Under the pieces are notes generated by a model that was not told the DNA's origin, did no database searches, and saw only the letters and a program-made list of their open reading frames with translations. From IMG/VR virus record IMGVR_UViG_3300030090_001223, positions 1 to 37,743 of that record: a stretch of 37,743 nucleotides of DNA. One strand, 5' to 3'. This stretch comes from a virus. Each line of letters begins with the position of its first letter. The first letter of the stretch is position 1. The translations under genes and the position numbers were made by a program. Of this stretch, positions 10,553 to 36,358 are shown piece by piece.

Positions 10553-10729
10553 TTATTTTTTTCTATCTCTTTTAATCTTTTTCTCTCTCTCCCTCCTAAG
10601 CTGGGAGGGCTTAGTGTAAAACCTTCGCTCTTCCAGCTCTAGTAATATACTATTCTCTCTAACTTTCTTTTTAAATTCAGAAAGCATCTTAGCTAAAGGT
10701 TTATTTTTTGTCTTCTTTACTAATATCAT
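10553..10729 (-). CDS. rpsU: Ribosomal protein bS21 homologue (58 aa)
   Basis: I place the start at the ATG at 10729, not at the upstream ATG at 10777, because GGAG sits 5 bases before it and the resulting N-terminus (MILVKKTKNKPLAKMLSEFK) matches the normal beginning of bS21. The rest follows the family: a basic helix (KKKVRENSILLELEERRFYT), then KPSQLRREREKK and a Lys/Arg-rich tail. Length is slightly shorter than the 70-residue E. coli protein, as is common. bS21 sits on the 30S platform beside the 3' end of 16S rRNA and helps mRNA selection; phage copies are known and can enter host ribosomes. It is the last gene before the early terminator and overlaps the upstream gene by 29 bases. Confidence 0.85.
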   Translation of the reverse strand: MILVKKTKNKPLAKMLSEFKKKVRENSILLELEERRFYTKPSQLRREREKKIKRDRKK

Positions 10730-11081
10730 TGCTTCTCCATTTAGTGTAAAACTCTTTCCTAGCCCACTTCTCTGCACTTACCTCCCACTTATTATCATCG
10801 TGAGGGTCTCTACCGCAATGCACAGCCATAGTACCAGCTTGACAGTATTTTCTAATAAACTTTTTGACACCCATTCTTCTAGCATCTAAAGCGTGCTTAC
10901 ATTCGTGTAGAATAGTTAGCATAAAGTCTTCAGCATCTCCTTCTTTCATCTCCATATCTTTAATAACCATTTTATCTTCTTCTGGTATATACATAGCCTT
11001 GACATCTAAATTTTTATCCATAACTATTGTAGGATATATATCGTATGAATGTACTATTGACCTTACAACTAAACTACGCAA
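10701..11081 (-). CDS. HExxH zinc-peptidase-like protein (126 aa)
   Basis: The motif LTILHECKHALDARRMG gives His59-Glu60-x-x-His63, the zinc-binding and catalytic set of zincin peptidases; a possible third ligand or downstream acid lies in KWEVSAEKWA (Glu100 or Glu104). This compact layout resembles small SprT/ImmA-like proteases. The start is TTG at 11081, inside the end of the helicase gene, with AGAAG about 9 bases upstream; the next in-frame ATG (11021) lacks a ribosome site. Substrate is unknown. It could process a virion or host protein, or be a regulator-cleaving enzyme. Cys61 within the motif is unusual but tolerated. Confidence 0.75.
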   Translation of the reverse strand: MRSLVVRSIVHSYDIYPTIVMDKNLDVKAMYIPEEDKMVIKDMEMKEGDAEDFMLTILHECKHALDARRMGVKKFIRKYCQAGTMAVHCGRDPHDDNKWEVSAEKWARKEFYTKWRSNDISKEDKK

Positions 11082-23036: not shown

Positions 23037-23065
23037 TTAAAGAAAAGCCCGTATCTCTACGGGCT
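23037..23065 (-). terminator. Rho-independent terminator after the palindrome-controlled gene
   Basis: On the minus strand AGCCCGT and ACGGGCT (7 bp) close a 6-base loop and are followed by TTTCTTT. It lies 24 bases after the stop of the gene at 23089-23514, so that gene is probably a single-gene unit unless read-through feeds the downstream block. Confidence 0.8.
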
Positions 23066-23088: not shown

Positions 23089-23514
23089 CTAACTCTCTTT
23101 CACCTCTTTAGCTGGTTTGACTTCTTTTCCGTTAGCGTCTAAAAACTTGTAGGAAGCTTTTATATTGATATCATAAGCATCTACTGAGACTCTAACCTTA
23201 GAAACATTTTTATAATTAGAACCTAGTTTCTCCATCTGTTTAGTAGTTAGAGTTGTTTTTTCATATTTAAAACCCTTCAAAGATTTTACATCTTTTCTAG
23301 TCTTATTCACGCTCTTTTTAATCTCAGAGTCTGTACAAAAGTCTACGTGAGATTCTCTCTCTTTCTTTTCTACTATCTCGCATTCGTTCTTTATAGATGC
23401 TGTATCTATTGAAACGCCTTTAGCTTCTAACTTTGCTAATAAGTCTAACTCTGATTGAGTGATTATTGTACCATTCATTTTAGTACTCTCTTTCTTTTCT
23501 TTTCTAGTTGTCAA
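23089..23514 (-). CDS. Palindrome-controlled early protein, TTG start (141 aa)
   Basis: The frame opens from an ATG at 23619, but that part is simply translation through two palindromic operators. A TTG at 23514 has GGGAGG 5 bases upstream, the strongest ribosome site around, so I start there; an internal ATG at 23478 is a second choice. The product contains MNGTIITQSELDLLAKLEAK, a Cys/Glu/Lys-rich middle, and a C-terminal beta-like part (KVRVSVDAYDINIKASYKFL). No DNA-binding motif is obvious. It has its own promoter and terminator, so it is separately controlled; it could be the regulator that binds the palindromes, but that is only a guess. Confidence 0.65.
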   Translation of the reverse strand: MTTRKEKKESTKMNGTIITQSELDLLAKLEAKGVSIDTASIKNECEIVEKKERESHVDFCTDSEIKKSVNKTRKDVKSLKGFKYEKTTLTTKQMEKLGSNYKNVSKVRVSVDAYDINIKASYKFLDANGKEVKPAKEVKES

Positions 23515-23536
23515 ATTTACCTCCCTTCCACCAAGT

Positions 23537-23585
23537 TGAGATTGAATCTCATTATCAATGTTATTGAGATTGAGTCTCAATAGCA
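23537..23585. promoter_or_regulatory. Palindromic operators A (23537-23557) and B (23565-23585)
   Basis: Two 21-bp imperfect palindromes with shared left half TGAGATTGA and right half of the form TCTCA(T/A)TA, centres 28 bp apart. They overlap the promoter of the 141-residue gene. The half-site form TGAnA-TGA...TCA-TnTCA resembles Fur-type boxes. Confidence 0.7.
23551..23580 (-). promoter_or_regulatory. Leftward promoter TTGAGA-18-GATAAT inside operators A and B
   Basis: The -35 (TTGAGA, 23580-23575) lies in palindrome B and the -10 (GATAAT, 23556-23551) in palindrome A; the TTG start with GGGAGG is about 37 bases downstream. A protein bound to either palindrome would block this promoter. 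The -10 differs from the TATATT of the other six promoters. Confidence 0.6.
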
Positions 23586-23701
23586 TTTCTAAGGACTTGG
23601 GTTTGGGTAAGTACTTCATTTCCCAAATTTACTACAATTCTATATAATATGCAAATAGTTTATAGAGAGAATTTTCTAGGTAGAACCCAGGTGGCTGCGA
23701 T

Positions 23702-23766
23702 TGAGATTGAGACTCATTCTCATTAAGTATAAAAAAGATCTGTACTGATATTGAGACTCAGTATCA
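23702..23766. promoter_or_regulatory. Palindromic operators C (23702-23722) and D (23746-23766)
   Basis: Two further 21-bp copies, both with the core TTGAGACTCA and both followed directly by TTAAGnATAA. Centres are 44 bp apart. On the plus strand each contains TTGAGA followed after 15 bases by TATAAA or CATAAT, a spacing too short for a normal promoter. Confidence 0.7.
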
Positions 23767-23852
23767 TTAAGCATAATCCTGGGTGTAGCACGTTACAAGT
23801 TACGAAATTTTAACTATATAAATCAAGTAATAAAAAATGCGATTTTTTCAAC

Positions 23853-23873
23853 TGAAATTGCGACTCAGTATCA
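23853..23873. promoter_or_regulatory. Palindromic operator E
   Basis: The fifth copy, with left half TGAAATTGCG and right half CTCAGTATCA (sharing CTCAGTATCA exactly with copy D), followed by ATAAGCA. It is the least perfect on its left side. Confidence 0.6.
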
Positions 23874-24508: not shown

Positions 24509-24537
24509 AATATAAGTCTTATATAAGCTTTTGTCAA
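24509..24537 (-). promoter_or_regulatory. Leftward promoter TTGACA-17-TATATT (module R, inward)
   Basis: A perfect -35, 17-base spacer and TATATT on the minus strand, with a leader of about 90 bases before the 48-residue gene. Flanks CTTGTTGACAAAA and TATATTGTAAGTA match the plus-strand promoter at 17989-18017. It likely drives the lipoprotein genes and perhaps more of the leftward block. Confidence 0.8.
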
Positions 24538-24552
24538 CAAGTAATTTACTAC

Positions 24553-24581
24553 TTGACAAAAATACTTTTTAGAGTTATATT
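24553..24581 (+). promoter_or_regulatory. Rightward promoter TTGACA-17-TATATT, leaderless
   Basis: Perfect -35, 17-base spacer and TATATT; the -10 ends 6 bases before the ATG at 24588, so the expected transcription start is at the A of ATG. It drives the rightward early genes and forms a divergent pair with 24509-24537. Confidence 0.8.
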
Positions 24582-36086: not shown

Positions 36087-36358
36087 TGGCATTAACTAGC
36101 GTAGCTTTAAATTCTTCACCAAGCTGGACTGTTGTTACTTTAAATAACTCTCCATCTTTTACTCAGGTTACTTTGAACACATCTCCTTCTTGGACTGGTG
36201 TTACTTTAAACACATCACCGTCTTGGACTGGTGTTACTTTACCAACATCTGTAACTTTTATAGTTCCAGGTTCTTGGAACGATATGAGTGTAAATAATTG
36301 GGAAAACGAAACGAGAACATGGAAACAAATAGGGTTGCTAGGAAAGGATTCTGACTAA
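36086..36358 (+). CDS. Protein of five tandem 11-residue repeats (90 aa)
   Basis: Residues 4-58 are five units of the form xVTLNTSPSWT (SVALNSSPSWT, VVTLNNSPSFT, QVTLNTSPSWT, GVTLNTSPSWT, GVTLPTSVTFI); units three and four are nearly identical also at DNA level (33-base repeats). A beta-strand/turn repeat with buried Val/Leu and Trp suggests a small beta-solenoid or spike-like stack. The C-terminus is different (PGSWNDMSVNNWENETRTWK). Start overlaps the fibre-like gene stop. Likely a minor tail or head-fibre component. Confidence 0.7.
   Translation: MALTSVALNSSPSWTVVTLNNSPSFTQVTLNTSPSWTGVTLNTSPSWTGVTLPTSVTFIVPGSWNDMSVNNWENETRTWKQIGLLGKDSD

Follow-up and report, generated by a model that had tools for sequence, protein, structure and literature searches.

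Five related 21-bp palindromes stand together in the control region of a virus record from IMG/VR, and the question that they raise is which regulator they serve and what it would do there. The window, that is, the whole 37.7-kb stretch of DNA analysed here, encodes a terminase, a portal protein, a capsid protein, an exonuclease, a DnaB helicase, a Sak annealing protein and a cytosine methylase, and among the Pfam matches of its genes (25 of 27 families listed) neither an integrase nor a repressor family was found; the matches listed include no initiator family. Between about 24.4 and 10.5 kb the genes run leftward, and from 24.6 kb onwards they run rightward; GC skew and gene direction switch at about 24 kb, and the skew switches likewise at the change of gene direction at 10.5 kb. 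The closest DNA relatives of the window are IMG/VR contigs. Cultivated phages gave no DNA match and only distant protein matches, with identities of about 25% for TerL and about 21–23% for the portal protein; the exonuclease reaches 48% to Bacteroides and Cellulophaga phages.

The palindromes and the gene behind them

A repeat search of the window recovered the palindromes at 23537, 23565, 23702, 23746 and 23853 as one family, with spacings of 28, 137, 44 and 107 bp. They follow the 21-bp grid TGA-n-A-n-TGA...TCA-n-T-n-TCA, and all five contain two overlapping 7-1-7 inverted heptamers that are offset by 6 bp. Across the whole window, matches to the pattern TGANATTGAGACTCANTNTCA with up to three mismatches are confined to 23537–23873, where they number 11 when both strands are counted; 0.05 matches would be expected by chance, and none of 100 shuffles reached the observed number. 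The sites, designated A to E, are listed here with their matches to the 21-bp E. coli Fur consensus, no strand being assigned.

23537..23557: Fur-like box A, TGAGATTGAATCTCATTATCA; overlies the -10 of the predicted leftward promoter; 17/21, the top score of the genome, shared with D
23565..23585: Fur-like box B, TGAGATTGAGTCTCAATAGCA; overlies the -35 of this promoter; 15/21; 28 bp from A in L002, L003, L004 and L006
23702..23722: Fur-like box C, TGAGATTGAGACTCATTCTCA; 16/21; absent in L004
23746..23766: Fur-like box D, TGATATTGAGACTCAGTATCA; 17/21, the top score of the genome, shared with A
23853..23873: Fur-like box E, TGAAATTGCGACTCAGTATCA; 15/21; located elsewhere in L006, L007, L008 and L010

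The surrounding features, with their strands, are the following.

23046..23065, - strand: predicted intrinsic terminator, directly after g129
23089..23478, - strand: g129, 129 aa, function unassigned, first gene after the boxes in the leftward direction; Pfam and PHROG gave no significant family
23551..23580, - strand: predicted sigma-70-type promoter, TTGAGA-18-GATAAT; known by consensus match only; spacing and -10 conserved in L002, L004 and L006
24015..24269, - strand: small lipoprotein-like gene upstream of the boxes; homologues in L012, L019 and L021
24509..24537, - strand: strong promoter-like site, TTGACA-17-TATATT, without a Fur box; consensus match
24553..24581, + strand: strong promoter-like site, TTGACA-17-TATATT, without a Fur box; consensus match

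The initial annotation had described five related palindromes in a non-coding control region, two of them overlapping the -35 and -10 of a leftward promoter, and a common trailer on C, D and E. The family at these five starts was recovered in full, and TAAG(C/T)A does follow the last three copies. The statement on non-coding DNA can be refined, as A and B lie within a mechanical ORF (23089–23619) and the conserved protein starts at 23478; therefore, all five copies are upstream of the gene. The overlap with the promoter likewise holds for the predicted TTGAGA-18-GATAAT, the -35 of which lies inside box B and the -10 inside box A, promoter-like matches in the box region being no more numerous than in shuffles. 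No convincing promoter was found at boxes C–E.

Because an intrinsic terminator is predicted directly behind g129, the boxed unit is probably a single gene. The AlphaFold prediction for its product has a pLDDT of 77 and a pTM of 0.40, a confidence too low to make a fold search useful. In L003/L052, the slot behind the boxes is filled by an unrelated protein, which is common to L019. As g129 is replaceable and ended by a terminator, and as the divergent promoter-like sites at 24.5 kb carry no box, control by the boxes seems to be directed at a single, exchangeable gene slot, not at the whole replication operon. Leftward read-through from 24.5 kb must also cross the boxes.

Two further arrangements were observed in this region. 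The divergent TTGACA-17-TATATT sites (24509–24581) form a near-palindromic pair between the leftward and the rightward genes. Boxes C and D are flanked by an inverted repeat, ACCCAGG (about 23686–23692) and CCTGGGT (about 23777–23783); CCWGG is also found in the control regions of relatives, and a cytosine methylase is encoded by the phage.

Likeness to Fur boxes and occurrence of the motif

The textbook Fur consensus of E. coli, TGATAATGATAATCATTATCA, is independent of the phage and was used to scan both strands of the 37.7 kb. With scores of 17, 15, 16, 17 and 15 out of 21, boxes A–E lead the genome, and only one further place reaches the lowest box score of 15/21. Consensus scans for LexA, parS, DnaA, Zur, MntR, Irr and NrdR gave nothing special in the box region, in which no DnaA box was found. 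The initial annotation had likened the palindromes to a Fur-type 7-1-7 box and had proposed scoring them against Fur, LexA and ParB sites; this likeness is borne out by the fit to a 21-bp double 7-1-7 grid and by the top matches to the E. coli Fur consensus, which picks out the five sites as LexA and parS do not.

A 21-bp double 7-1-7 layout has been described for two Fur dimers (PMC7536154), and the structure of one Fur box carrying two dimers has been solved (PMC4506495). Judged by its sequence, each 21-bp site of the phage could accommodate two Fur dimers. The boxes resemble the Fur box of E. coli and P. aeruginosa in the 21-bp grid, in 15–17 of 21 positions of the E. coli consensus and, for A and B, in overlapping a predicted promoter core; they differ from it in the centre, which is GAGAC/GAGTC instead of GATAA, and in the presence of five boxes in one phage region.

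When GTDB genomes were searched for exact matches to the phage motif, at least 115 stretches were obtained, and the matches listed come mostly from Planctomycetota, Poribacteria and Verrucomicrobiota, including marine Opitutales, a selection that tells little about other phyla. FUR genes adjoin the motif in 4 of 83 unselected neighbours, which is the unbiased count because two FUR genes in the set of 85 had been added by hand, and in 1 of 30 in a second set. Genes with a TonB plug adjoin it five times (once more in the second set), hemP twice (once more in the second set), FhuF once (second set) and ferritin (bacterioferritin) once; FUR, TonB and hemP are absent from the families listed for 78 control genes from motif-bearing loci. 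Other frequent neighbours are multicopper oxidases in Poribacteria and DUF1559 proteins in Planctomycetota.

hemP genes were also sought, independently of the motif, in 119 Planctomycetota genomes. With a motif score threshold of at least 18, six of nine hemP loci (four of seven independent ones) carry the motif, in every case upstream of hemP, and shuffles gave none. The strict pattern occurs at 19 sites in 10 of the 119 genomes (reversed control, 0), and it is rare in Verrucomicrobiae (3 of 141 genomes). At Poribacteria fur genes, the motif was found at 0 of 30, which shows no autoregulation of fur via the motif; therefore, the regulon differs between groups.

Among viruses, the motif is present in 38 IMG/VR stretches. 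Tight clusters lie upstream of small terminase genes (L041, L048, L059 and L208/G154), near a large terminase gene (L220/G159), near an HNH endonuclease gene (L217/G170) and at other places. Several viruses thus bear clusters and are apparently unrelated, their kinship being judged from adjacent genes only. A search for a Fur-family gene (PF01475), which was positive in 13 of 14 control genomes, was negative for the window and for 23 further virus records with the motif, many of which are fragments. In G154 (L208/L209), the cluster is present at 210–300 and at 36183–36309, at both contig ends and about 36,009 bases apart, which points to direct terminal repeats or to a circular genome in which the boxes precede the small terminase gene.

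Turnover of the boxes in relatives and clues to the host

In the relatives L002, L003 and L006, the sites are 87–93% conserved, compared with 67–76% for the flanks; in L004, from which box C is deleted, overall identity is equal for sites and flanks (78%). The spacing between A and B, 28 bp in these four, is 23 bp in L008 and L010. L019 and L021, which are near relatives but more distant than L002, L003, L004 and L006, have no boxes, and the boxes are therefore inessential to such phages. Conservation in relatives, on which the initial annotation had made its proposal depend, exceeds that of the flanks in L002, L003 and L006 and does not extend to L019 and L021.

L020 carries a box at the spot where L019 has none, and is 95.5% identical to L019 rightward. 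When L020 (1–220) is set against L019 from 4451 onwards, this identity extends over 5.2 kb; starting at the control region and going left, the two differ sharply, as would be seen after exchange of a regulatory cassette. In the 80,282 bases of G331 (L012), boxes are present in one phage copy and absent from the other. Because L019/L021, L020 and G331 differ in box content, the regulatory input at this spot changes quickly, as would be expected if it follows the host. At the place of the boxes, other short direct repeats are present, CCAGATTATGTATAATAG twice in L019 (4320–4460) and ATACCAGGGCAATTTTA twice in L021 (4331–4395), which are perhaps sites of another regulator. The G331 sequence seems to consist of two phage genomes, related but distinct, that are joined end to end, with two exonuclease genes and two control regions, and is probably a chimeric assembly.

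A bS21 protein (PF01165) is encoded by the phage, probably by the ORF at 10553–10777 of the window (- strand) as a 58-aa protein beginning with MILVKKTKNKPL; it has no match in the phage collection. Its identity to the bS21 of candidate hosts is low, at 21–25% for four Verrucomicrobia, mostly marine, and 38–40% for a Poribacterium and a Theseobacter. A host search with the DNA polymerase exonuclease gave only weak hits in 141 Verrucomicrobiae genomes. A Bacteroidota host, to which the likeness of the exonuclease (up to 48%) might point, is argued against by the Shine-Dalgarno (SD) motifs that precede 30 of 52 genes.

Proposed control by host Fur, competing explanations and a possible link to iron

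The five palindromes are probably boxes for the Fur protein of the host, through which iron-loaded Fur would most likely repress the g129 promoter, titration of Fur being an added possibility. In an iron-replete cell, host Fe(II)-Fur would occupy all five boxes; Fur on A and B would cover the -35 and -10 and shut the leftward g129 promoter, and C, D and E would reinforce the array or affect leftward read-through. The promoter would open if the cell is short of iron or if many phage genomes have titrated Fur. We infer the binding, the repression, the response to iron and the titration, as well as the identity of the host. The initial annotation had treated a host Fur-type box, a phage-coded repressor and iterons as equal options; the sequence supports the first, and the other two fall well behind, as no Fur-family gene was found in the phage, the spacing is irregular and no initiator was found. 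Control by host Fur stands well ahead because the sites are the best matches to the Fur consensus, genes of the Fur regulon neighbour the motif in bacteria, no phage-coded Fur was found in the records searched, the irregular spacing is not accompanied by an initiator among the families listed, and LexA, parS and DnaA sites do not stand out.

The boxes might instead serve chiefly to titrate host Fur as copies of the phage genome accumulate, which would derepress host iron uptake (TonB receptors and others) and leave the local promoter a secondary role. Five strong boxes in 37.7 kb compare with 2–3 exact-pattern matches per whole genome in, for example, G002 and G005, the promoter core includes only two of the five, the boxes stay when the gene slot behind them is exchanged, and titration by multicopy Fur boxes underlies the Fur titration assay known from the literature. 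We nevertheless judge this unlikely, as two boxes lie exactly on the predicted promoter, the -10 and spacing of which are conserved, and clusters of the boxes are confined to regulatory DNA. Operators of a phage-coded regulator, with an accidental likeness to Fur boxes, are less probable still: groups of related palindromes close to divergent promoters are a typical form of phage operator, and similar clusters stand upstream of terminase genes in other phages, but the window and the 23 other motif-bearing records lack a Fur-family gene, the Pfam matches listed for the window genes include no repressor family, and the motif is present in viruses without visible kinship and before bacterial iron genes.

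The 7-1-7 layout is common to boxes of the FUR superfamily, and several motif-bearing genomes carry two or three FUR genes, both of which would suit another host regulator of this superfamily with a similar box, such as Zur, PerR or Mur. That the neighbours of the motif are iron genes (TonB, hemP, FhuF and bacterioferritin), and that the consensus scans gave no special match to Zur in the region, makes this very improbable. An origin of replication with iterons, or a structured RNA, is hardly credible. Gene direction and GC skew do turn at about 24 kb, but the skew turns at the 10.5-kb switch of gene direction too, the spacing (28/137/44/107) is irregular, the region lacks a DnaA box, and the sites are not linked to an initiator-type protein; boxes A and B together fold well as RNA (z -3.5 to -4), but C, D and E fold no better than shuffles, and no Rfam family scored above the cut-off.

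For control by host Fur, the one clear precedent found comes from Stx1 prophages, the stx1 promoter of which has a Fur site (PMC10042803). There, as is proposed here, phage DNA uses host Fur at the -35/-10 of a phage promoter, which is a predicted one in the present case; however, stx1 has one site and is a cargo gene of a prophage, whereas the present phage, which yielded no lysogeny gene, has five boxes in its central control region. The Ferrojan horse hypothesis and a paper on iron reprogramming of virocells, which suggests host-level control through Fur, also link marine phages to the iron state of the host (PMC12282109); they concern iron in tails or host expression, whereas the link here would be made by DNA sites in the phage genome. 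No report of Fur boxes in free phages was found in the open-licence literature, which is no proof of novelty.

It is possible, although we rather doubt it, that unrelated free marine phages carry arrays of host Fur boxes at the heads of key operons as a widespread strategy, both to sense iron at promoters of their own and, once their DNA is replicated, to titrate Fur so that the infected cell turns on iron uptake. Across much of the ocean, life is limited by iron; for the question of how the iron state of the host is answered by phages, the box array provides a concrete, testable DNA element that is kept in relatives, swapped between near-identical phages and recurrent in other viruses. If Fur binds, the timing of infection or the iron uptake of the host would be tied directly to cellular iron. 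The array suggests that a marine phage reads, or soaks up, the iron regulator of its host during infection.
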